This document shows, piece by piece, positions 37,768-47,833 of a DNA stretch of 64,000 nt; position 1 is the stretch's first letter, and the number at the start of each line of letters is the position of its first letter. The notes beneath the pieces are model-generated. The model had not been told where the DNA came from. It saw only the letters and a program-made list of their open reading frames with translations, and did no database searches. This DNA is from Microbacterium sp. SORGH_AS_0888 (GTDB taxonomy: Bacteria; Actinomycetota; Actinomycetes; Actinomycetales; Microbacteriaceae), in the NCBI RefSeq assembly GCF_030818905.1, contig NZ_JAUTAZ010000001.1, positions 2,852,001 to 2,916,000 of the forward strand. Reading direction: 5' to 3'. The position numbers and the translations under genes were made by a program.

Positions 37768-37784
37768 GTTAGCGGTAGTTGGTG
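37768..37784. repeat. attL core
   Basis: GTTAGCGGTAGTTGGTG, identical to 47344-47360. The following seven bases (TATTGCA versus AACTGCA) differ only at two positions, so the element carries an imperfect copy of more of the yajQ end. Confidence 0.9.
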
Positions 37785-37892
37785 TATTGCATCCCGGGGA
37801 TTGCTCGGAGTTGGGGGCGATAGTGATTGGCGTCTCTACCTGGGATTTATTGACGGTTGGTGATTGGCCGTATTGGTGCTGGATTGAGGATA

Positions 37893-37913
37893 TTGCGGAC
37901 TCTTTGCGGACTC
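37893..37913 (+). promoter_or_regulatory. Putative integrase arm-type sites, left
   Basis: TTGCGGACTC occurs at 37893-37902 and again at 37904-37913, 11 bp apart and about 110 bp inside attL. The same decamer occurs once on the other side of the core at 47293-47302. Paired direct repeats flanking attP fit arm-type binding by a tyrosine integrase. Confidence 0.65.
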
Positions 37914-37955
37914 GTCCCTAGTTTCAACGACTGTGGCGCGGCTACAGTCACCCGC

Positions 37956-38156
37956 ATGGGGGAAGTGACCGGAACTGTGATCTTCGTTGCACTGATTGTG
38001 TACGTAGCGCTTGTGGGCCTTGGCCTTTGGGTGACTTACCTAATCATCAGAATGGCCGTTGTTGACGCGCTCCGCGAGCACGAGATCCGTCTAGCGAATG
38101 GCAGCATCGATGCTGAAATCGAGCGGCGACGACAGCGAGATGCGCGCAACCACTGA
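37956..38156 (+). CDS. Small membrane protein of unknown function
   Basis: A 66-residue protein with one long hydrophobic helix (VTGTVIFVALIVYVALVGLG and onward), then a basic amphipathic tail (EIERRRQRDARNH). It could be holin-like or a simple membrane anchor, but a lone one-helix protein proves neither. ATG 37956 is likelier than upstream starts, which would add an unlikely Arg/Cys-rich leader; TACAGT at 37944-37949 may be its -10. Confidence 0.55.
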   Translation: MGEVTGTVIFVALIVYVALVGLGLWVTYLIIRMAVVDALREHEIRLANGSIDAEIERRRQRDARNH

Positions 38157-38165
38157 CAAGCGGAC

Positions 38166-38471
38166 TTAGCTAGTTCCGTGGATACCCCGCCCGCGCATCT
38201 CGGCCCCATCCGTGACGTACCGGGCAGCCGCGGGAAATGCATTTAGCAACGCCTCACACAACACACGCGTCTCCGCTTCGCCGTAGTACCCAACCCACGA
38301 TCCCACCGTCCGGTCAAGCAACTCAGCGCGACCACCGGCACGCGACCGCAAATCAGCGATCACCGGACCAGGATCAACTGTGAACCGCTCGCGACAGCAC
38401 ACAGCCGACAGCTGAATCTCAAGCAACGTTTCAGGGCTCACGCGCCAGAGACTACGCCGCTCCCACGACAT
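38166..38471 (-). CDS. Hypothetical protein of the integrated element
   Basis: About 101 residues from ATG 38471 (MSWERRSLWRVSPETLLEIQ). The sequence is well-mixed and likely helical, with a central GSWVGYYGEAETRVLCEALL. I do not recognise it. The frame is open further upstream but overlaps a better-supported plus-strand gene start region. It faces the terminase genes' 3' side. Confidence 0.5.
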   Translation of the reverse strand: MSWERRSLWRVSPETLLEIQLSAVCCRERFTVDPGPVIADLRSRAGGRAELLDRTVGSWVGYYGEAETRVLCEALLNAFPAAARYVTDGAEMRGRGIHGTS

Positions 38472-38547
38472 CCCCGTAGGGTTTCTGTCCCGGTTGTCCG
38501 ACCCCCGTGGCAGGGTAGCGGTCACCGAAACCTTTGGAGGGGGACCA

Positions 38548-38757
38548 ATGTCCGAGACCACTGATTCCGAGTCGGCCCGCGAGGCTCGCGCGAAGGCGCA
38601 GACTGCGATCTTCGACGCCGTGACGGATGCCATCGCCGCAACACGTACGAGCGGCGTGCCGCTGTACAACCACGCCGGGACGATCCGCGAACTTGCATAC
38701 GCCTACCGGCTGGCGGCCGGTGGGACGCAGCCCGGATCGATCGACGTCAGGAAGTAG
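38548..38757 (+). CDS. Small hypothetical protein of the integrated element
   Basis: A 69-residue acidic, probably helical protein (MSETTDSESAREARAKAQTA). A strong ribosome site GGAGGGGG ends 4 bases before ATG 38548, supporting translation. It stops 22 bp before the convergent terminase stop. No family recognised. Confidence 0.6.
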   Translation: MSETTDSESAREARAKAQTAIFDAVTDAIAATRTSGVPLYNHAGTIRELAYAYRLAAGGTQPGSIDVRK

Positions 38758-38778
38758 CGGCAGCAGGTGCAGCGCCGG

Positions 38779-40248
38779 TTACAGGAGCACTTGCCGGCGC
38801 TGCACCTTCCGTCGCGTGTGCTCACGGAGGGCACGCACACCGAGCGCCGCGCCGATGAGCGGGGAAACGTCAGCACCGTTGACGCCGACAAGCTTCCAAC
38901 CCTTCCCGTCGTCGAACGTGGAACGGGTCGCGGCGGCAGCAGCAGCATCCAAACGCGGGTCGTAATGCAGCACCCGGCCTTCGCGGACATGTCGCACCAG
39001 CGCCTCGCACGCGAGCGTCAGATCACGGCCAGAAGCCGCCACAACGCGTTTCCGGCGCTCCACGTCACGGATACCGGCATCGCGGAGATCGCCCGTCAGG
39101 TCACCCGTACGGATCGGGTCGAACGTGACCACAACGTGCGGTGACGCGGCACGCACCCGAGCGAGCGTGTCAGCAACCCACTCAAGGCCCGGCGCAGCAG
39201 CCAGGACACGCAACCCGATACGGTTCCCCTCGAGCGGCACAACCTCAGTGAGCGTCGTCATCTCCGTGTTGTAGGTGCAGTCGACACCGATCACGCGCAC
39301 GTCACCATGAGTGAACGTGTACGCCTCATCACGGGCCGGCCACGACTCCCGAGGCACGCGCCCCGCAGCCCATCTGTGCTCATCCAACGCCAGGGCTGTG
39401 TCACCCGAGCGGCCCCACTCTCCGAGACGTTCACGACGGAACACGTCAGGGCGTGCCTGCATCGCCTGCCACTCGTCCACGATCTTGTCCTCCCGAATCA
39501 CAACGCCCAGTGACGGGTTCGTGCGTCGCCACACCGCCCGGTCGGTGGGATCGTCCCCAGGGGCAGCAGCCCACTCCGACCAGGTGAGCCGGTCGTCCCC
39601 GCCCGCATACGCGGCAGCTCGCATGTCCGCGAAGAACTCACCCTTCGCCGAATACGGTGGCGTGCCGGTGAGGATCAGTTGCGTCCTGGCGTCACCCTGC
39701 CCGGAAAGCGTGGGCATCATCGCACCCATCGTCAGGTAGTCCAGTTCCTGCGCCTCATCAGCGATGATCGTGCGGAACCCGAGGCCACGGGTCGCGGACT
39801 TCGACCGGGCGGTGAACTTCACCTCAGCACCGTTCGTGAACACGATCTTCTCCTGGCCGTTCGCGGTCCGAACCGTGTCGACAAACGCGGACAGCTCCGC
39901 GGACGCGTCGAGGATCGCCCGGAACCGTTGAAACGACTCCTGCATGGTCCGCACCTCATGCGCAGTCCACAGCACCCGCTCACGCAACAGCAGCGCCTTC
40001 GCGAGCGTCACCACCTCAAGCACCACACCCTTACCCGACTGACGCGCCACAGCCAGGCCGTAGCGGGTCGCAGCCCACTCACCATCAACCCGAAGCCCAA
40101 GAATGCGGCGCACCTGTTCCGCCTGCCACGGCAACAACGTCACACCCGCCGTCGCAGCGAGCTCCACAGCATCGTCCGCAGTCGACGCATCAGCGATCAC
40201 CGGGACCACCTCAAACGTCGGCGTCTGCACCCCCAGAAGCCCATTCAC
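38779..40248 (-). CDS. Phage terminase large subunit
   Basis: A 489-residue packaging motor: WQAEQVRRIL adenine-binding region, a Walker A variant ARQSGKG at residues 68-74, Walker B TIIADEAQE (Asp164, Glu165), coupling motif LILTGTP, and a C-terminal nuclease domain with VIGVDCTYN and VVTFDP acidic motifs. It matches the Terminase_1-type large subunits of tailed phages. It overlaps the small subunit gene by 4 bp. In a normal prophage a portal gene would follow; here the element ends within 1 kb. Confidence 0.9.
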   Translation of the reverse strand: MNGLLGVQTPTFEVVPVIADASTADDAVELAATAGVTLLPWQAEQVRRILGLRVDGEWAATRYGLAVARQSGKGVVLEVVTLAKALLLRERVLWTAHEVRTMQESFQRFRAILDASAELSAFVDTVRTANGQEKIVFTNGAEVKFTARSKSATRGLGFRTIIADEAQELDYLTMGAMMPTLSGQGDARTQLILTGTPPYSAKGEFFADMRAAAYAGGDDRLTWSEWAAAPGDDPTDRAVWRRTNPSLGVVIREDKIVDEWQAMQARPDVFRRERLGEWGRSGDTALALDEHRWAAGRVPRESWPARDEAYTFTHGDVRVIGVDCTYNTEMTTLTEVVPLEGNRIGLRVLAAAPGLEWVADTLARVRAASPHVVVTFDPIRTGDLTGDLRDAGIRDVERRKRVVAASGRDLTLACEALVRHVREGRVLHYDPRLDAAAAAATRSTFDDGKGWKLVGVNGADVSPLIGAALGVRALREHTRRKVQRRQVLL

Positions 40249-40502
40249 TTCGCACCTCGAGCCGCTCGCCGCTTCAACAACTCATCCACCGACGACACCG
40301 CAGCACCAGCCCCGTCGAGCGAACGCAACGCCGCCTCGATGTCGAGCATCACACGGGCAAGAGTCCCCGTCTCCCGAGCCGAGTCCGTCGCGTCAAGACG
40401 GGCCGCGACGATCTCCCGCAGCGCCCGCAACCGTGCCGTTGCATCGTCAGGATGGTCCGTGATGGCCCGCAGCATCGACCGAATCTGTGTCGTGTCTTCC
40501 AT
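40245..40502 (-). CDS. Probable terminase small subunit
   Basis: An 85-residue, mostly helical, charged protein just upstream of the large subunit and overlapping it by 4 bp. The position and size fit a short TerS of HNH-associated phages; the sequence alone (LRALREIVAARLDATDSARE) is not diagnostic. It would select the DNA to package. Confidence 0.6.
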   Translation of the reverse strand: MEDTTQIRSMLRAITDHPDDATARLRALREIVAARLDATDSARETGTLARVMLDIEAALRSLDGAGAAVSSVDELLKRRAARGAK

Positions 40503-40619
40503 GTGGTTACTCCTTCTGAAAGGGCCGCAGAACGGCTCACAGCGCCCCGCTTGGTGGTGGGAAGCCCTTGGAGGTATCTCCTGGGCCTGCGGGTGTGCGC
40601 TGGGGTGGGGGCGGGAGGG

Positions 40620-41063
40620 TCAGCCCCCTGGGGTGGTGAAGATGTGGGTGGGTGTCTCGGTGCCTGGTACCGCGTAGCCTGCGAGTGTTTCGCCTTCGTT
40701 TGTCTTGGGCACCCATAGTCCGGCGGTTGCTTTCTGTCGTGGCTGTCGTGTTGTCCGCGGTGCCTGTTTCGCGCCGGCGCGTTCGTTGCATACGGCGTGG
40801 GATTGCACGGCGTTCTCGCGGCTGTCGGTTCCGCCTGCCGCGTGGGCGATGATGTGGTCTGCGTGGAATGCGAGCGGTCGTGGTTGACCGATTTCCCACC
40901 ACCGCCCGTCTGCGCGTGCGTCTCGGTCTGCTTCTGCCTGGGTTCGGTAGTCGATGGGTCCGAGGGCTCCCCGGCATAGGTGGCAGGGGAGGTTGTGTTT
41001 CCGGCCTTCTTCTCGGATGGCGCGTGCGATCTGCCGCCATGTTCGGGTTGCTGTGCGTGACAT
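40620..41063 (-). CDS. HNH endonuclease
   Basis: A 147-residue protein with an HNH core: CHLC zinc ligands at 27-30, FHADHIIAHAAGG (His67, Asp69, His70) and SHAVCNERAG (Cys92, Asn93). HNH proteins beside terminase are needed for packaging-terminase cleavage in cos-type phages. The 117-bp gap to the small terminase gene holds no visible gene. Confidence 0.87.
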   Translation of the reverse strand: MSRTATRTWRQIARAIREEGRKHNLPCHLCRGALGPIDYRTQAEADRDARADGRWWEIGQPRPLAFHADHIIAHAAGGTDSRENAVQSHAVCNERAGAKQAPRTTRQPRQKATAGLWVPKTNEGETLAGYAVPGTETPTHIFTTPGG

Positions 41064-41136
41064 CGCGTGGGCCTCCGGTGAGTGTGTGGCTGGGTCGGGG
41101 TGGGGCCGGCACGTCGGCCAGCCCCACCGGGGGTGG

Positions 41137-41970
41137 TCAGAGGATGACGGCTTGTTCTTCGGCGAGGATGGTGACCCTGTTTGCCATCTGCGCGGACCGT
41201 GTACGCCGTTCGAGGGCTTCCGGGGTGGCGAGGCTGAAGGTCACCCCCTGGTATTCGCCTCGTGCGATGCGGATGAGGGTGCGGTCGATGTCGCGGTCAG
41301 CGTCGACCAACAGCCACTTGATCGTGTTGCGGCGTCCGGTGTCGGCGTCTTTCACCGGGCGGGGGCCGTTCAGCGCGCCCCTGACAGCGGATGCGGGGGT
41401 GTCCACGACCGGCACGTCGACGATGGCGAGGATGCGGGACGCGCGCGCGTTCACGTAGTCGATGTGGTTCGGGGCAGCGAACGTGAACGCGGCCAGGGCT
41501 GCAAGCGCGGCCTGTGCCTCCTTGAACGCCTCGGTCGTGTCCTGGTCGAACGCGATCTCCCTGTTGAGGGGGTCCTTGTGGTCGAGCTTCTTCGCTGCGT
41601 CCGTGAGTCGCTTCGTCACGGTATTGAACGGGCGGGTGAGGTCCTTCGTGGCCTTCTCACGGAGCGTGTCGATGCGCTCAAGCGCGATCGCGTCGATGGT
41701 GCGGTTGACGATGTCGCGGAGACTGTCAGCAGCGGTCGCGCGGGCGGTGTCACGGATCGCGTCCTCGAGGAGCTTCTTCGCGTCGCGTTCCCCGTCGACG
41801 GCGAGGGTGGCGTACTTCACGGCGACGTCGTGCGCGGTCGGTTCTTCACGGAGCAGGGCGGAGAACGCCGATACCCGGTTCGGGGCGGTGAGTCCTGCCG
41901 CCTGGTAGGCCCGGTCGATCAGGTCGCGGGCGTTGAGGTGGTTGAGGGTCTCGGGGTTGTAGATGCTCAT
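41137..41970 (-). CDS. Hypothetical protein with MSIYN start, element-specific
   Basis: A 277-residue, largely alpha-helical protein (ARDLIDRAYQAAGLTAPNR near the start; long Ala/Glu/Lys/Arg helices mid-way; NTIKWLLVDADRDIDRTLIR near the end). No family recognised. Its first five residues and the surrounding bases equal those of the three 66-residue repeat genes upstream, and its ATG overlaps the stop of the third copy (ATGA), so it is the last member of a coupled series. Confidence 0.7.
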   Translation of the reverse strand: MSIYNPETLNHLNARDLIDRAYQAAGLTAPNRVSAFSALLREEPTAHDVAVKYATLAVDGERDAKKLLEDAIRDTARATAADSLRDIVNRTIDAIALERIDTLREKATKDLTRPFNTVTKRLTDAAKKLDHKDPLNREIAFDQDTTEAFKEAQAALAALAAFTFAAPNHIDYVNARASRILAIVDVPVVDTPASAVRGALNGPRPVKDADTGRRNTIKWLLVDADRDIDRTLIRIARGEYQGVTFSLATPEALERRTRSAQMANRVTILAEEQAVIL

Positions 41971-42167
41971 TCGTTCGTTCCGTTCTGGTTGAGGAGCTGG
42001 GTGAAGATGTCCGCGCCGGCCTGCTGGATAGCGGCTTTGCGGTCGTGTTCGGCTTGGATGAGTGCGGCGGCGTGCCGTTTCCGTTCCGCGGCGGCATCGG
42101 CGGCCCGCTGGAATACCTGCGCGCCGGTTTCCGGGTCCTCGAATCCGAGGGTGTTGTAGATGCTCAT
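41967..42167 (-). CDS. 66-residue repeat gene, copy nearest the terminase
   Basis: A 66-residue protein (MSIYNTLGFEDPETGAQVFQ, then an Ala/Lys/Arg-rich helix and IFTQLLNQNGTNE). It likely forms a short coiled coil. The stop overlaps the start of the 277-residue gene, and its own ATG overlaps the stop of the identical upstream copy. Function unknown. Confidence 0.75.
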   Translation of the reverse strand: MSIYNTLGFEDPETGAQVFQRAADAAAERKRHAAALIQAEHDRKAAIQQAGADIFTQLLNQNGTNE

Positions 42168-42364
42168 TCGTTCGTTCCGTTCTGGTTGAGGAGCTGGGTG
42201 AAGATGTCCGCGCCGGCCTGCTGGATAGCGGCTTTGCGGTCGTGTTCGGCTTGGATGAGTGCGGCGGCGTGCCGTTTCCGTTCCGCGGCGGCATCGGCGG
42301 CCCGCTGGAATACCTGCGCGCCGGTTTCCGGGTCCTCGAATCCGAGGGTGTTGTAGATGCTCAT
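42164..42364 (-). CDS. 66-residue repeat gene, middle copy
   Basis: Encodes the same 66 residues as the flanking copies; no base difference is visible over the 197-bp unit. Because 197 is not a multiple of three, each copy sits in a different frame, yet each restarts through ATGA overlap. Confidence 0.75.
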   Translation of the reverse strand: MSIYNTLGFEDPETGAQVFQRAADAAAERKRHAAALIQAEHDRKAAIQQAGADIFTQLLNQNGTNE

Positions 42365-42561
42365 TCGTTCGTTCCGTTCTGGTTGAGGAGCTGGGTGAAG
42401 ATGTCCGCGCCGGCCTGCTGGATAGCGGCTTTGCGGTCGTGTTCGGCTTGGATGAGTGCGGCGGCGTGCCGTTTCCGTTCCGCGGCGGCATCGGCGGCCC
42501 GCTGGAATACCTGCGCGCCGGTTTCCGGGTCCTCGAATCCGAGGGTGTTGTAGATGCTCAT
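42361..42561 (-). CDS. 66-residue repeat gene, first copy in the transcript
   Basis: Same protein as the next two genes. It is preceded by a 52-residue gene whose stop overlaps this ATG. The in-frame sequence further upstream is open but belongs to other frames. Confidence 0.75.
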   Translation of the reverse strand: MSIYNTLGFEDPETGAQVFQRAADAAAERKRHAAALIQAEHDRKAAIQQAGADIFTQLLNQNGTNE

Positions 42562-42716
42562 TCGGTGTCCTTTCGGATGATCGAGATACGTACTGAGTGC
42601 GGCCACCCGTCGATACGGATCCGCCAGTCGTCGGTGGTGAGCAGGTGTGCCACGGCGAGCAGGTCGCGGTTGCCGAGGAAGTTCGATTTGTAGTGCCAGC
42701 GGGTCCGCACCGTCAT
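42558..42716 (-). CDS. Small basic hypothetical protein
   Basis: A 52-residue protein (MTVRTRWHYKSNFLGNRDLL...IRIDGWPHSVRISI). The stop overlaps the start of the first 66-residue repeat gene (ATGA), which supports it. However, its N-terminal third is antisense to the start of a Bro-N-like sequence (42682 onward), so part of it may be created by that insertion. Confidence 0.45.
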   Translation of the reverse strand: MTVRTRWHYKSNFLGNRDLLAVAHLLTTDDWRIRIDGWPHSVRISIIRKDTE

Positions 42717-42990
42717 GGTCGATGGTGAGCCGTGGTTTGTTGCGAAGGACGCCTGCGACGTGCTGGGAATCAGCAAGTACCGTGACGCGGTTGCACAGCT
42801 CGCCGCCGATGAAAGGGCATCCACGGCGGTGGACACCCTTGGTGGGCGTCAACGGATGGCTGTCGTCAACGAACCAGGGCTGTACGCGCTCATGTTCATC
42901 AGTCGCTCGCCGAAGGTTCGTCCGTTCCAGCGTTGGGTGACGCATGAGGTGTTGCCGCAGATTCGTCGTACGGGCGAGTTCCATCCATCG
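42682..42990 (+). pseudogene. Bro-N (antirepressor N-terminal domain) remnant
   Basis: Plus-strand translation gives VRTVMVDGEPWFVAKDACDV, RMAVVNEPGLYALMFISRS and FQRWVTHEVLPQIRRTGEF, a clear Bro-N DNA-binding domain of phage antirepressors. An in-frame TAG at 42691-42693 follows FDL at the position where family members read FDF/FEF-x-G, so the N-terminal strand is cut off. Homology stops after IRRTGEF, with no C-terminal domain. It is antisense to the surrounding operon. A short product from ATG 42715 is conceivable. Confidence 0.75.
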
Positions 42991-43088
42991 CGGTGTGCAA
43001 GACGGCTGAGTTGGCGGAGTGCGGGCCGAGCGCCCTCGGGGACGTAGATCGCATCGCAGCGGTCGCAGAGCATCACGGAGCGGATCAT
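42849..43088 (-). pseudogene. Truncated small phage protein, 3' part replaced by antisense Bro-N sequence
   Basis: Starts MIRSVMLCDRCDAIYVPEGA, with a CxxC zinc-like pair, and overlaps the stop of the upstream gene (ATGA), so the start is genuine. From about 42985 downward the frame is simply the reverse complement of the Bro-N fragment (RRICGNTSCVTQRWNG), so the original C terminus has been lost. Confidence 0.6.
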
Positions 43089-43267
43089 CGGGGGTGCCTT
43101 TCTGCCTGTTGTGTGTCGATGCGCTGAAGGCGCGGGAACACGTCGCATGTGTCTTCGTGGAGTGCCTGAACAATGGGTTCTCGACTGGTCGGGTGCTCCA
43201 CGACTCGGGTCCACGGGATGCACCCGCCGCAGGTCTCGAGCCAGACACGGTGGGGTCCGATGCTCAT
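43085..43267 (-). CDS. Small hypothetical protein
   Basis: A 60-residue protein (MSIGPHRVWLETCGGCIPWT...) with a CGGC motif that may bind metal. ATG 43267 overlaps the stop of the replication protein gene and its stop overlaps the next start, so it is part of the coupled leftward operon. No family recognised. Confidence 0.6.
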   Translation of the reverse strand: MSIGPHRVWLETCGGCIPWTRVVEHPTSREPIVQALHEDTCDVFPRLQRIDTQQAERHPR

Positions 43268-44088
43268 GCGGCTGCATCCCATTCGAGATGCGCGGGTACC
43301 GCGCCGTTGAAGTACCAGTCCTTCGTGGCCTGGCTGAGTTCATCGAAGAGTGGTGTGCCTTCGTCGGGTCCGTCCCAGTTGCCTGCCATGCCGACGTTCT
43401 TCAGGTACTGGCGGATCTGTTCGGACGCCTGCTTCTTCGTGAGCTTTCGCCAGCGGGCGATCATCTCGTCGTTTGGGATGTGCCAGGTGATGCAGATAGC
43501 GAGGTCGCGGAGAAGCGTGACCTGCTTCTCGGTTGCTGAATCGTCCGGAAGATCGAAAGAGACATCCTCGGGTCCGCTTTTCAAAGCGGACGTTAAATCT
43601 GATGTATTGATCTTCTGAAGAGTGGTCTTCTTAGTGGCACTCGGAGTGCCTACCCCTGGGGTCTGGGAGTGCCTACCCGGTGTCTCGGAGTGCCTACTAT
43701 TTGTTTCTGCATCCGCAGGTAGGCACTCGGAGTGCCTACTTTTCCGCTTGGGGATCCGCTGTCCGCGGGCCGTTCGAGCCCACATGTCTTCGGGCGCTGT
43801 GCGTGACGGAACGGCCACGGTGTACTCGTTGACCTCGTTGCGTCCCTCGTGCTTCGCGCGGCGAACGCTGATGAATCCGCGCTGCTCGAGTTTGGGGATC
43901 GTGCGCTTGACCGTCTCCCGGGAGACTCGTGCGCGATCCGCAATGGTCGTCATGCCGACGGTCCACTTCCCTGTCTGCGGGTTACGGAACCGCAGCAGGA
44001 CGATGTAGATCGCCAGTTCGTGCAGCGTGAGGTCGCTGTCGTCGATGAGCCAGTTGGGCAGCATCACGAATCCGTCGGTGCTCTTCAC
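43264..44088 (-). CDS. Replication initiator-like protein with N-terminal helix-turn-helix
   Basis: A 274-residue protein. Residues about 18-80 form a winged helix-turn-helix (LTLHELAIYIVLLRF, MTTIADRARVSRETVKRTIP, LEQRGFISVRR), as in phage and plasmid replication initiators. A flexible middle has repeated RHSE/RHSQ-TP motifs, coded by iterons. The C-terminal part (KQVTLLRDLAICITWHIPND, KLTKKQASEQIRQYLKN) resembles actinophage proteins of this type. Lambda O-like initiation is inferred from the embedded repeats, not shown. Confidence 0.75.
   Translation of the reverse strand: MKSTDGFVMLPNWLIDDSDLTLHELAIYIVLLRFRNPQTGKWTVGMTTIADRARVSRETVKRTIPKLEQRGFISVRRAKHEGRNEVNEYTVAVPSRTAPEDMWARTARGQRIPKRKSRHSECLPADAETNSRHSETPGRHSQTPGVGTPSATKKTTLQKINTSDLTSALKSGPEDVSFDLPDDSATEKQVTLLRDLAICITWHIPNDEMIARWRKLTKKQASEQIRQYLKNVGMAGNWDGPDEGTPLFDELSQATKDWYFNGAVPAHLEWDAAA
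43636..43739. repeat. Iteron-like repeats inside the replication gene (putative origin)
   Basis: GGAGTGCCTAC occurs at 43643, 43666, 43687 and 43729 (starts), spaced 23, 21 and 42 bp, close to whole helical turns. The first is part of the palindrome GGCACTC-G-GAGTGCC (43636-43650), and the last of a perfect 10-1-10 palindrome with arm GTAGGCACTC (43719-43739). An AT-richer stretch (about 43578-43635) adjoins and could serve as the unwinding element. Confidence 0.7.
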
Positions 44089-44166
44089 TGGTCACCTCCA
44101 TTCGGTATGTGACGGGCCAGGCTCCGTGGAGGAACCCGGCCCGTGTTTATTGGGTTTGTGTGTGCG

Positions 44167-44240
44167 AGCGCGCGGCCGGAGTCGAACCGGCGACGCCCGG
44201 GATAGAAGGCCCGGCGCTCTGTCCGCTGAGCTACGCGCGC
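44167..44240 (-). tRNA. tRNA-Arg(UCU)-like gene with 8-nt anticodon loop
   Basis: Reverse-strand cloverleaf: acceptor GCGCGCG/CGCGCGC, D arm GCTC-AGCGGACA-GAGC, T arm GCCGG-TTCGACT-CCGGC, all paired. The anticodon stem CCGGG/CCCGG encloses CCTTCTAT, eight bases rather than seven; ordinary tRNA-Arg(UCU) has CTTCTAN there. The discriminator would be T and CCA is not encoded. It may be functional, a +1-type decoder, or decayed. Confidence 0.75.
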
Positions 44241-44284
44241 GGGGACGAGGTGCCGCGATATACGCGGCACCTCACAGGGAGGGG

Positions 44285-44614
44285 TCAATGATGAACTGGC
44301 TCGCCCTGGTGTTCGCGGGCTTTGAGGATCTCGTCGACCCGCTCGCGGTAACGCTTCTTCGCGGCGTAGAGGTCGCGGTTGGCGGCGTTCCTGCGTTTCT
44401 TGGCTTCCCAGGCCTCACGGGTGATGTCGTAGAGGTCTTGGCATTCCGGGCAGTCGGGTGCCGTGGGATCGGTCGCGAGACCGGAAGTGCCTACCTGCAC
44501 GGTGGGGACGAATGATATGGCGCAGAGTGATCGCACTTCGGTGCCTTCGATCATCGCGAGGGTGACGTCGTAGCCCGGCCGGATGCGGTGGTTGACGGTG
44601 CCCATGTCGGTCAC
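44285..44614 (-). CDS. Hypothetical protein of the integrated element
   Basis: A 109-residue protein; a CPEC pair sits mid-way (DCPECQDLYDITREAWEAKK) ahead of a long basic helix (ANRDLYAAKKRYRERVDEIL). ATG 44614 overlaps the stop of the upstream gene by 4 bp. No family recognised. Confidence 0.65.
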   Translation of the reverse strand: MTDMGTVNHRIRPGYDVTLAMIEGTEVRSLCAISFVPTVQVGTSGLATDPTAPDCPECQDLYDITREAWEAKKRRNAANRDLYAAKKRYRERVDEILKAREHQGEPVHH

Positions 44615-44991
44615 TCCTCGTCCAGCGTGCGGAGGTGGTCGTCAACGCCGGCAGCGCGGGTGACGGTTCGTGCCGTCGTCGCTCTCTCGTACGCGCGGAG
44701 GAGTACTGCCGCGACCTCGGGGAGATCTTCGATGAACACGGTCATCTCTTCGACGGCAACGCATTCACCGGGCCACAGGTTCGCCCATGAGATGAACGCG
44801 TGCTCCTTGTGTGCTCGTACGCCGTGGGACGTGAAGCTGTGCGTGACGCTCAGGGTGACGGAGACGTTGTTGTCTTCGTATTCGTGCTGGTCGACCATGG
44901 CGTGGCCGTCGTCTTCGAGGTGACGGTCGGTAGCCCAGGCCGGCGCGGCGATCTCGGGGTGAATGTCCGAGGTGTGTGCTTGGATAGACAT
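44611..44991 (-). CDS. Hypothetical protein of the integrated element
   Basis: A 126-residue acidic protein (start MSIQAHTSDIHPEIAAPAWA), with alternating beta-like stretches (NNVSVTLSVTHSFTSHG) and a helical C terminus. A ribosome site (GGAGAA) stands upstream. It overlaps the next gene by 4 bp. No family recognised. Confidence 0.65.
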   Translation of the reverse strand: MSIQAHTSDIHPEIAAPAWATDRHLEDDGHAMVDQHEYEDNNVSVTLSVTHSFTSHGVRAHKEHAFISWANLWPGECVAVEEMTVFIEDLPEVAAVLLRAYERATTARTVTRAAGVDDHLRTLDEE

Positions 44992-45022
44992 GCTGGTTCT
45001 CCTTACTTAGCGGTTCGGTGTT

Positions 45023-45283
45023 CTAGCTCTGGACCCCTGTTGGCGCAGGGGTCTTTTTCTTGTGTCCCCAGACGTGTGCCTTGCGGGACATTCGGAACTC
45101 GAGTTGATCGAGGTACGGCTGGATGTCGTCGGTGCTGACGTAGAGGGTGAAGCCGTTCTCCCAGGTGATCTGCACGGTGCGTCCCATGAGGTTCCGCACG
45201 GCCGTCTCTCCGGTGGGGTCGCGGTATGTCAGGCGGTAGTACTCGTCGCGCGATGCTTCAGCGCCACGGTTGGGGCGGTGCAT
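45023..45283 (-). CDS. Hypothetical protein of the integrated element
   Basis: An 86-residue protein with a beta-rich core (YYRLTYRDPTGETAVRNLMG, TVQITWENGFTLYV) and a basic tail. ATG 45283 is 3 bp after the stop of the excisionase-like gene, so the two are co-transcribed. No family recognised. Confidence 0.65.
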   Translation of the reverse strand: MHRPNRGAEASRDEYYRLTYRDPTGETAVRNLMGRTVQITWENGFTLYVSTDDIQPYLDQLEFRMSRKAHVWGHKKKTPAPTGVQS

Positions 45284-45285
45284 CT

Positions 45286-45477
45286 CTAGTCCGCGAACGC
45301 CTCGCTGATGATGCGTTCGATCTCTGAGGCGGCGATGACGGTGCGCCCGCCGATCTTGCCGGACTTGATCTGGCCGGTGTGGAGCATCCAGCGCAGGGAA
45401 GCGGGGCTCCTCCGCAGCTCGGCCGCGGCCTCGTCCACGAAGTAGAAGCGCGGTCTGGTCGTGAGCGTGTCAGTCAT
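45286..45477 (-). CDS. Helix-turn-helix excisionase-like protein
   Basis: A 63-residue MerR/excisionase-type winged helix (FVDEAAAELRRSPASLRWML, then GKIGGRTVIAASEIERII). It is the first gene of the leftward operon, divergent from the repressor and integrase, the usual place for Xis. It could instead be a DNA-binding activator of that operon. Confidence 0.8.
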   Translation of the reverse strand: MTDTLTTRPRFYFVDEAAAELRRSPASLRWMLHTGQIKSGKIGGRTVIAASEIERIISEAFAD

Positions 45478-45508
45478 GGTGACCTCCCAATCAGGATTGA
45501 TGAGTCCC

Positions 45509-45556
45509 ACAGTAATGCATCTCCACAAAATGTGCAACCGTCCACGAGAATGTGGA
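45509..45556 (-). promoter_or_regulatory. Leftward early promoter with two repressor-operator candidates
   Basis: On the minus strand, -35 TTGCAC (45537-45532) and -10 TACTGT (45514-45509) are 17 bp apart. CACA-AAA-TGTG (45524-45534) overlaps the -35 and spacer. A second dyad TCCAC-6-GTGGA lies at 45541-45556. The two related dyads between divergent repressor and excisionase genes fit a lysis-lysogeny style switch. Confidence 0.7.
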
Positions 45557-45568
45557 AGAATGATTCTT

Positions 45569-46174
45569 ATGAGTGAGCGCGACGACGAGGCCAACTTCGC
45601 CCGAAACATGGCCGTCCTGCGCGAGCGGCGGGGTATGAGTCAGAGCGAGCTCGCAAGGCGGATGACCGAGCGCGGCTTCGACAACTACTCGCAGATGACG
45701 GTCAGTCGTACCGAGAAGGGACAGCGACCGATCCGCCTTGGAGAGGCTCGTGTCTTGGCGGAGGTGCTGGGGAGCCGGCTGGAGGAGATGACGCGCGGTT
45801 CCGGGATCGAAGAGATGGTGCGCCAGCTCACTTCGGTCGCTGACGGGCTGGCTCAAGCCATGACCGACACGGTGCACTCGCTCAGCACTTATGGTTCAGG
45901 CGTTGAGGTCGCGCGTGAACTCGAAGCCCGGCCTACTGCCGATGACCCCGCAGTCGCCGAGTCGCTGGAGAACATGCGGGTTTACTGCTACCCGGTGGAG
46001 GCTGTCGCTAGATGGGCTGCCGAGGTCGCGACCGATCCTCAGCGCGATCCATACCCCACTGAGGTGACGCTGAGCGATCTGGACCGCATCGCTGAGCTGG
46101 CGGGCACGACCCAGCCCAAGCGGTATTGGTTCACGCTCGACGGGTTAGCGAATGGGGAGGCTGATGCCGAGTAG
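45569..46174 (+). CDS. XRE family repressor-like protein
   Basis: A 201-residue protein. Residues about 10-70 form an XRE helix-turn-helix (MAVLRERRGMSQSELARRM, MTVSRTEKGQRPIRLGEARV). The C-terminal 100 residues are helical with no protease motif, so it is not a LexA/CI-type self-cleaving repressor. It likely binds the dyads at 45524-45556 and maintains the integrated state. Its 3' end overlaps the integrase start by 11 bp. Confidence 0.8.
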   Translation: MSERDDEANFARNMAVLRERRGMSQSELARRMTERGFDNYSQMTVSRTEKGQRPIRLGEARVLAEVLGSRLEEMTRGSGIEEMVRQLTSVADGLAQAMTDTVHSLSTYGSGVEVARELEARPTADDPAVAESLENMRVYCYPVEAVARWAAEVATDPQRDPYPTEVTLSDLDRIAELAGTTQPKRYWFTLDGLANGEADAE

Positions 46175-47348
46175 CTACATTGAAGATCGCTGGCATGTGC
46201 GCAGCGACGACGGCCGGCGTGAACGCAGCAGCCGTTACGGGGTCGGGAAGCAGTGGCGCGCCCGGTACCGTGACGCGGAAGGCAAGGAGCACGCACGTCA
46301 CTTCGAGCTGAAGCGCGACGCTCAGCGATGGCTGGATGAGGTCACCGCGTCCGTTGTGACAGGGCAGTACGTGGATCCGCGTGCAGGTTCGCTCACCTGG
46401 GATGAATGGGTCGAGCTGTGGGCGACTCGGCAGACGTGGGTGGATGGGACGGTCGAGGCTGCGCAGACGGCTACGCGAAGCGTGCCGTGGCGGTCGACGC
46501 CGTTGTCGAAGATCCTGCCCGCGCATGTGCAGAAGTGGGTCACGGCTGAGGTGAAGCGTGGTCTCGCGCCGACCACGGTGCGGACCAGGCTCAACTACGT
46601 GCAGATGGCCTTCCGTGCCGCTGTGCAGGACAAGCTCATTGCGTCGAACCCTGCCGCGAATGTGAAGCCTCCGCGAGCACGGCGGGCTGAGGTCGCGATG
46701 CGGATTCTCACCCCGGAGCAGATCGTGCAGGTTCTCGAGGCGGCGGGGGAGTTCCGCCCGTTCGTCGAGGTGTGCCTGTTCGCGGGGCTGCGGCTCGGTG
46801 AGGCCGCGGGCCTTCAGGTTGGCGACGTGAATTTCCTTGGGCGGTCCATCGATGTGCGACGGCAGGTGCAAGGTGCCACGAACGAGGGCGCGAAGCTCGT
46901 GCCCCCGAAGTACGGCAGTGAGCGGACGGTCTACGTGCCGGGTGACCTCACGGCGTCCCTATCTGCACACGTCTCGCAACAGGGGCTGACCGACCCCGGC
47001 ATGATGCTGTTCTTGACGCCGCTCGGTCGTCTTTGGCATCGCAACAACGCGGGGGATGAGTGGCGGCGGATCCGTAAGGCCGTTGGGTTGCCGGAAGAAG
47101 TCACGTTGCACACGCTGCGGCACACGTACGCCTCCAACCTCATCGCCGCCGGCTGCGATGTTGTGACGGTGCAGCGCGCGCTTGGGCACTCTCAGCCGTC
47201 GATCACGCTCAACACGTACAGCCACCTGTGGCCGTCCGCTGAAGACAAGACAAGAGCCGCCACCGCGGACTTCATGTCCTCAGTGGCGGCTCTTGCGGAC
47301 TCTGGGCGGACTGGGCCGGGAAAACCCCAGGTCAGAGGCTTGCGTTAG
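46164..47348 (+). CDS. int: Tyrosine recombinase / phage integrase
   Basis: A 394-residue integrase: N-terminal arm-binding region ([20 protein letters not shown]), core-binding SAM-like domain, and a catalytic domain with the residues Arg210 ([11 protein letters not shown]), His316-Arg319 ([10 protein letters not shown]), His342 (LGHSQP) and Tyr352 (NTYSHLW). ATG 46164 was chosen for its GGGGAGG ribosome site; ATG 46152 is an alternative. The stop codon lies inside the attR core. Confidence 0.93.
47252..47294. repeat. 12-bp inverted repeat in the integrase 3' end
   Basis: AAGAGCCGCCAC (47252-47263) and GTGGCGGCTCTT (47283-47294) are exact complements, with a 19-nt loop, immediately before the right arm-type sites. 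It may be part of the att architecture or an RNA hairpin limiting integrase mRNA. Confidence 0.6.
47293..47313 (+). promoter_or_regulatory. Putative integrase arm-type sites, right
   Basis: TTGCGGACTC at 47293-47302, and a second, weaker copy sharing GCGGACT at 47306-47312, in the same orientation and 11-bp spacing as the pair at 37893-37913. Confidence 0.6.
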
Positions 47349-47360
47349 CGGTAGTTGGTG
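47344..47360. repeat. attR core, within yajQ 3' end
   Basis: GTTAGCGGTAGTTGGTG, identical to the left core. On the minus strand it encodes the last residues (TNYR) and stop of yajQ, so integration leaves that gene intact. Confidence 0.9.
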
Positions 47361-47833
47361 AACTGCAGGTCGACGTCGAGGTCGGCGGCCTTCAGCAGGC
47401 GCTGCACCTCCTGCAGGTCGTCGCGGGACTTCGAGCTCACGCGCAGCTCATCGCCCTGGATCTGGCTCTTGACCGACTTAGGGCCCTCGTCGCGGATGAT
47501 CTTGCCGATCTTCTTCGCGTTCTCCTGCGAGATGCCCTCTTTGAGGGTGGAGACGATGCGGAACTCCTTGCCGGATGCCGTCGGCTCGCCCGAGTCGAGG
47601 CTCTTCAGCGAGATGCCGCGCTTGATGAGTTTGGACTGGAACACGTCGAGGACCGCTGCTGCGCGCTCCTCGGTGTTCGCGGTGATGAGGATCGACTCGC
47701 CGCTCCAGGCGATGGAGGCACCGGTGCCCTTGAAGTCGTAGCGCTGCTCGACCTCTTTCCGCGCCTGGTTCAGCGCGTTGTCGGCCTCCTGGCGGTCGAT
47801 CTTGGAGACGATGTCGAACGAGGAGTCTGCCAT
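47345..47833 (-). CDS. yajQ: YajQ family nucleotide-binding protein (DUF520)
   Basis: A 162-residue protein with the family's two ferredoxin-like domains: [20 protein letters not shown] at the start, [12 protein letters not shown], and [20 protein letters not shown] near the end. Family members bind cyclic di-GMP or nucleic acid. Full length despite serving as the attachment site of the adjacent element. Convergent with the integrase gene, overlapping by 4 bp. Confidence 0.93.

Follow-up and report, generated by a model that had tools for sequence, protein, structure and literature searches.

A probable phage satellite of Microbacterium with its own large terminase and no detected head or tail genes

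Phage satellites of the phage-inducible chromosomal island (PICI) type, among them the Staphylococcus aureus pathogenicity islands (SaPIs), span about 8-16 kb; in these islands the large terminase (TerL) of the helper phage is redirected, and HNH endonucleases act with terminases at cos sites. P4-like satellites are characterized by the P4 genes alpha, sid, delta and psu. PMC10690885 describes some SaPIs that encode a small terminase (TerS), capsid-forming PICIs (cf-PICIs) with their own small and large terminase and an HNH endonuclease, and the Streptomyces satellites MulchRoom and MiniFlayer, which combine terminase and HNH with portal and capsid, are without an obvious replicase and depend on virulent helpers. 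PMC12987554 reports that the PICI-like elements (PLEs) of Vibrio cholerae encode their own tape-measure protein (TMP) and tail-assembly chaperone and give chimeric tails, and that predicted tmp genes occur in PLE-like elements and cf-PICIs. Known satellites divert packaging through a small terminase, rebuild the entire head or, in the recent Vibrio case, replace the tail ruler. Here we analyze a 64,000-nucleotide window (the whole stretch examined, positions 2,852,001-2,916,000) of the 3.64-Mb single-contig genome of Microbacterium sp. SORGH_AS_0888, in which a 9.6-kb element at window positions 37768-47367 is, in our judgement, probably an integrated phage satellite that brings its own packaging motor. 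Our main sequence methods were Pfam and PHROG hidden Markov models (HMMs), tblastn and NG86 substitution rates.

The features that carry this proposal, in window coordinates, are:

37768..37791, attL copy of the direct repeat; 17 bp perfect, 22/24 bp overall
38779..40248, minus strand, TerL, large terminase of 489 aa; phrog_9 at 3e-49, ATPase and nuclease residues present
40245..40502, minus strand, 85-aa protein, putative small terminase by position only; overlaps terL by 4 bp
40620..41063, minus strand, HNH endonuclease; PF01844 at 1.2e-5, phrog_338 at 5e-14
43264..44088, minus strand, Rep, HTH_36/DnaD-like replication initiator; HTH_36 at 6e-7, phrog_270 at 3e-20
45286..45477, minus strand, excisionase-like HTH_17 protein (Xis); HTH_17 at 3e-8
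45569..46174, plus strand, XRE repressor; XRE HTH at 6e-10, divergent from xis
46164..47348, plus strand, tyrosine integrase; Phage_integrase at 4e-21, relatives of 61% identity or more are markers of the yajQ site
47344..47367, attR copy; equals the 3' end (last codons) of yajQ
47345..47833, minus strand, yajQ, the host gene holding the attachment site, outside the cargo

A first-pass annotation of this DNA had placed integration, control, replication and terminase genes between perfect att repeats; the HMM scans recover that gene content apart from the small terminase, while the 24-bp repeat has two mismatches and is perfect at both ends of the element only over its 17-bp core. A yajQ-end repeat judged from its core letters to have the same core also bounds other elements, namely all three in one set and nine of 17 yajQ loci in another. 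The G+C content is 0.57-0.68 within the element versus 0.70-0.76 in the left flank. Reading inward from yajQ, the integrase and the XRE repressor lie on the plus strand, followed on the minus strand by the excisionase, three small genes, a tRNA gene, Rep, further small genes, a 197-bp unit in three copies, the gene o277, HNH, the 85-aa gene and TerL. In its integrase, att borders and 9.6-kb length the element has the dimensions of a PICI-type satellite, and its xre gene (45569, plus strand) diverges from xis (45477, minus strand), with rep on the minus, xis side, as in the PICI-type control layout. This likeness to PICIs and SaPIs, drawn at the level of general layout, covers size, integrase, divergent repressor and excisionase, Rep, the predicted redirection of packaging and the lack of a head-and-tail set; those islands use the helper's TerL, whereas this element brings its own TerL and HNH. 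With the cf-PICIs it shares TerL and HNH, its TerS being putative and called by position only, but the portal, protease and capsid of the cf-PICIs were not found here by PHROG scan or tblastn; unlike MulchRoom and MiniFlayer, it is integrated, has Rep and has no head. The literature searched, which lay outside most subscription papers and all bioRxiv preprints, yielded no satellite with a TerL but no head, no lone capsid proteins of this kind and no Microbacterium family.

The region 3' of TerL, where a phage would continue with its virion genes, contains only the following before attL:

38548..38757, plus strand, o69, 69-aa protein adjoining terL; an 87-aa form has no PHROG or Pfam match
about 38166..38471, minus strand, o68m, small end gene of uncertain start; homologues in both further elements of this genome and in G402, G489 and G462
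37857..38156, plus strand, tm99, small protein that by our own reading looks membrane-bound; homologues in G453 (48%) and G416 (37%)

That only three tiny genes and attL follow the large terminase had been noticed on first pass, and open reading frame (ORF) calls, HMM scans and tblastn bear it out. No portal, capsid or tail family was detected among 18 element proteins and ORFs compared with PHROGs, ten of them also with Pfam, and tblastn of the element with a limited collection of portal, capsid, tape-measure and tail proteins, which included no lysis genes, matched nothing but the element's own packaging block. Four prophages from this bacterial family have a TerL that is called whole (L032, L035, L036 and L039), and in all of them portal- and capsid-size genes follow TerL, these labels being ours from size and position; hence the gap 3' of TerL in the window is real. 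The succession of TerL, portal and capsid that marks a complete prophage does not occur in the element.

The TerL belongs to a conserved family of its own. Forty proteins passed among 5.8 billion searched: the query itself, 35 at 60-79% identity over at least 86% of its length, partial matches at 62% and 73% (one of them, P0038, being probably the relic described below) and two at 27-30%, giving 37 relatives at 60-79% identity; the drop from 60% to 30% may be sharpened by the search having scored only the 7,995 candidates that shared most words with the query. No relative was confirmed in 2.9 million viral contigs (patterns from conserved stretches, tblastn) or found in GTDB genome contigs (pattern scan, 106 stretches); all 1,808 TerL matches among 50,697 phage records fall below 60% identity, and none of seven plasmid records with a match reaches it. 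The TerL-type occurs in 398 genomes of the bacterial family as the query's own copy and three distant ones, and in 197 genomes of the order as its own copy only. It is not the ordinary terminase of the family, since the TerLs of 28 other genomes in a 299-genome family sample are at most 38% identical to it; seven of those loci (L031-L036 and L039) look like ordinary prophages by gene calls. Among 23 aligned members K73, D164, E165, D323, D377 and D430 are invariant, whereas D434 and the proline of the C-motif have one exception each. Pfam Terminase_6N matches only at 0.009, below its cut-off. Another genome, G527, holds a truncated copy, against which dN is 0.21, dS 1.16 and dN/dS about 0.18 (NG86, 209 codons); with dN far below dS, we conclude that TerL has been kept by selection. 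That truncated piece is a relic, followed only by small genes until chromosomal genes return, and tblastn found no portal, capsid or TMP in the 18-kb stretch around it. The large terminase claimed earlier is supported by phrog_9, while its small partner, without a Pfam or PHROG match, stands on position only. Contigs of about 9 kb among the TerL and Rep matches were considered as circular forms and dropped, as they form no clear cluster by eye.

On the arrangement of these genes we propose that integrase and excisionase would move the element into and out of the 3' end of yajQ, that the XRE repressor would silence the divergent early operon, and that Rep would copy the excised circle. On infection by a helper, HNH, the 85-aa protein as a putative TerS and TerL could then work as a cutting and packaging motor specific to the element, which would dock on the portal of the helper and load satellite DNA into heads that the helper has made, while related elements with the same chassis would contribute a TMP (some with a match to a tail-assembly chaperone) or a major capsid protein (MCP) instead. 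If so, the TerL of a motor-only satellite must dock on a portal encoded elsewhere, and the compatibility of terminase and portal becomes open to direct test.

The attachment site is used repeatedly in the genus. Relatives of the integrase at 61-74% identity occur in 25 of 365 other genus genomes, three of the matches being partial, and 21 of these loci were examined (three already available and 18 newly fetched; G528, G622, G403 and G567 were left out). Twenty of the 21 adjoin yajQ; the locus in G614 begins at a contig end but is flanked on the other side by the same hydrolase and fpr genes. The cargo consists of a TMP in seven (G456, G402, G620, G563, G462, G488 and G460), an MCP without a terminase or portal match in two (G502 and G396; PF05065 at 2e-17 and 1e-20) and a compact prophage with TerL and MCP in two (G614 and G372); in three (G416, G360 and G413) tblastn found no virion gene. 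Seven loci without attL in the fetched stretch (G617, G454, G602, G439, G599, G443 and G481) were left unclassed, and tblastn found no virion part in them. In G563, G462, G488, G460, G502 and G396 some proteins were scanned by HMM, and the rest of the assignment comes from gene calls and tblastn. The locus of G488 runs off its contig, G421 is without a recognized integrase, and G534 and G391 (integrase 50-52%), which have no yajQ match, were dropped. Thus, 12 of the 21 site relatives are without a full head-and-tail set, two have TerL and MCP, and seven are unclassed. The check that the first-pass annotation had proposed, a search of relatives for the same gene order at yajQ without structural genes, which we ran in the genus, therefore returned the same site and the same int-xre-xis chassis, but mostly with TMP or MCP in place of TerL, which that annotation had not anticipated.

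HK97-type MCPs lie at L171:6499-7761 and L179:9947-11143, in two yajQ elements of about 8.6 and 9.5 kb that match neither portal nor terminase. At yajQ the same integrase family also occurs in L169, L170, L172, L173, L175 and L176 beside large genes (up to 876-923 aa) without a virion-part match; the site may take other islands too.

The replication gene gives a second, overlapping view. Rep has 74 relatives, the named ones all from Microbacterium except for one actinomycete metagenome-assembled genome and one record named after a fungus; it is present in 17 of 366 genus genomes (that of the window included), gives two weak matches in 50,697 phage records and no useful match in a scan of viral contigs. 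Sixteen other Rep loci were fetched and 12 mapped, of which 11 carry a TMP without a TerL, portal or capsid match and the remaining one is the G453 locus, a compact prophage that has both TerL and MCP; ten unclear proteins of these loci were rescanned singly by HMM, one of them, at L114:16831-17475, being taken up below. Four fetched loci (L120, L125, L126 and L128) were kept out of the comparison set below by judgement, for a weak Rep match or a contig start; by tblastn none of the four has a TMP, TerL or MCP, and L125 matches TerS, so that the TMP count is also to be read as 11 of the 16 Rep loci fetched and not only as 11 of 12 mapped. The Rep gene is broken in G402 and G453. At L128:13289-14692, the second G502 locus, with a weak Rep match, lies a tail-fibre-type protein (phrog_15641, 5e-78), which is perhaps yet another single part.

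Taken together, the set comprises 26 elements, namely that of the window, two more of its own genome and 23 others, whose spans are att-bounded only where a repeat was found and elsewhere cut by judgement. By tblastn, with further support from HMM scans, 17 have a TMP, two an MCP, one (that of the window) a TerL, three TerL plus MCP and three none, and the 20 elements that carry a single one of TMP, MCP and TerL show no match to either of the other two. The reference set behind these counts is limited: it includes six TMPs and three MCPs from the compared elements themselves, and its portal labels and some capsid labels are our own, by size and place. A match to a tail chaperone at 1e-5 is present as well in three of the 17 elements with a TMP, and the TMP element of G456 has a beta-helix protein besides. 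'One part' should accordingly be read as a single core part, and the rule has exceptions.

The window's own genome has two additional elements, L143 and L144, which are satellite-like and each carry a homologue of o68m: at 2.436-2.450 Mb the integrase adjoins tRNA-Ser and the cargo includes TerS (phrog_1496, 3e-11) and a TMP, and at 0.425-0.435 Mb the integrase adjoins tRNA-Lys and the cargo includes a TMP. In this genome no PF04860 portal and no PF05065 capsid was found; other capsid and portal families were not searched, so that a helper prophage of another kind may be present. The phage TMP nearest to that of L143 is from Microbacterium phage Footloose (47% over 88%), which suggests what sort of helper the L143 element might use, though not the window element. 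Like the PLEs, the TMP-type relatives have a TMP and in three of 17 cases a chaperone match, whereas the window element belongs to another host phylum and has TerL and no TMP or chaperone match by tblastn. It is tempting to see in these elements an actinobacterial satellite family with one integrase, repressor and excisionase chassis, each member bringing one interchangeable core part (motor, MCP, or tail ruler with helpers) while a helper phage gives the rest, with several types per genome; we hold this wider proposal tentatively, at slightly less than an even chance. If it holds, the alternation of motor, shell and ruler at one site would mean that hijacking of virion assembly is possible at any of several single steps, by elements easily mistaken for dead prophages.

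Several observations tell against the satellite interpretation or its one-part pattern. There is only one intact TerL-type element with known context, the other copy (G527) being the truncated relic; the chassis, and in part the order of the genes, recurs in compact prophages; a BRO-N fragment (PF02498 matches nowhere else in this genome) has taken the place of the end of a small CxxC gene in the element, which is a mark of wear; a TerS match in five of the 17 elements with a TMP blurs the pattern; in G396 an M23-peptidase protein beside the MCP matches tape-measure families weakly and may be a tail part; and neither a helper nor excision or packaging has been seen. Further, the TMP elements of G522, G460 and the window's own genome (L143) encode a 214-229-aa protein whose PHROG is labelled terminase large subunit (6e-19 to 3e-17), a label we doubt at half the length of a TerL:

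L114:16831-17475, phrog_13702-type protein (218-aa PHROG), 3' of the TMP
L143:14330-14992, phrog_13702-type protein, 3' of the TMP
L182:12676-13365, phrog_13702-type protein, 3' of the TMP

We graded the family proposal down because these phrog_13702 proteins were confirmed and because of the TerS and M23 exceptions.

As only one intact TerL-type copy has context, it is also possible that a complete compact phage with this TerL at yajQ lost its portal-to-tail genes by deletion and that the remaining genes are decaying, the alternative that the first-pass annotation had put beside a satellite with its own terminase. The compact prophages of G453, G614 and G372 share the integrase and excisionase chassis, G614 and G372 having the same int-xre-xis at yajQ and G453 having int, xis, rep and tm99 arranged as in the element; in each, TerL is followed by a protein in portal position (our own label, with no PHROG match in G453 or G614) and then by the MCP, and the BRO-N scar and the relic in G527 are signs of decay within the group. 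The test that was to refute a satellite, close relatives with the same genes continuous with portal, capsid and tail, hence finds a shared chassis, twice at yajQ, but a TerL of another family: that of G453 is 22% identical to the window's and the others are recognized by profile only, so the element is not a deletion of any of the copies seen. Moreover, att sites, integrase and TerL are intact, the family of 37 TerL relatives was not found in viral contigs, and the site relatives divide as counted above into 12, two and seven. A reduced prophage is therefore the less supported of the two earlier alternatives and appears to us unlikely; we grade it no lower because of the single intact TerL-type copy, the marks of decay, the same-chassis compact prophages, the exceptions to the pattern and the want of a helper. 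Quite improbable, in our estimate, is a phage-defence island in which TerL, like TMP or MCP in relatives, serves as a decoy that jams the packaging or assembly of incoming phages. Lone virion genes do recur on one chassis, and PMC12987554 and PMC11364771 give tail assembly as a step at which satellite and chromosomal defences are known to act; yet packaging is a better fit than a decoy for a motor that keeps its catalytic residues and lies next to HNH, Rep and att sites, and PADLOC on ten element proteins gave only weak matches, Control_protein at 0.0012 (the repressor) and Cas8f at 0.0031 (o126). Better support goes to a satellite that brings a terminase of its own, with site relatives lacking a full head and tail, a conserved TerL family and its absence from the viral contigs searched.

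The compact prophages L124/L129, L167 and L183 are about 16-19 kb long, and insertion sequences interrupt that of G453. The G453 prophage has a capsid protein with 26-30% identity to those of the 16-17-kb actinophages PensacolaC28 and Coeur; these phages and the prophages of G453, G614 and G372 have capsid and tail-like genes and a TerL other than the window's.

The remaining features of the element include three that go beyond the first-pass annotation: a tRNA gene, the 197-bp triplicate and the BRO-N fragment.

41137..41970, minus strand, o277, helical protein; four distant relatives found
41953..42564, minus strand, 197-bp unit in three copies, each a 66-aa ORF
42558..42716, minus strand, o52, small gene by ORF call
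42715..43047, plus strand (opposite strand), BRO-N antirepressor fragment; PF02498, without the C-terminal domain
42975..43088, minus strand, 5' part of the CxxC gene; whole as 55-57 aa in G629 and G351
44167..44240, minus strand, tRNA gene; 8-nt anticodon loop
44285..44605, minus strand, o106, small early gene by ORF call
44611..44991, minus strand, o126, small early gene by ORF call
45023..45283, minus strand, o86, small early gene; 60% identical in G456, 67% in G489, 31-34% in G428 and G620

The structure model of o277 is poor (pLDDT 66) and gives no viral fold match at E <= 0.001; a search of solved structures had T4 gp17 at 0.008 as its sole match, and the relatives of o277 show no sign of sharing a contig with TerL relatives, the window's own excepted. 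The tRNA match is not noise (Rfam 55.1 versus a cut-off of 29); ARAGORN is unable to give it an assignment, the anticodon, read by eye, is UCU, and the 8-nt loop could read a shifted codon. That the tRNA answers a need for AGA codons was rejected, AGA making up six of 233 arginine codons in 12 element genes versus two of 103 in four flanking genes. Two copies of the 197-bp unit are identical and the third has one mismatch, and each 66-aa ORF overlaps the next by 4 bp; by its sequence the unit appears to be a recently amplified gene.

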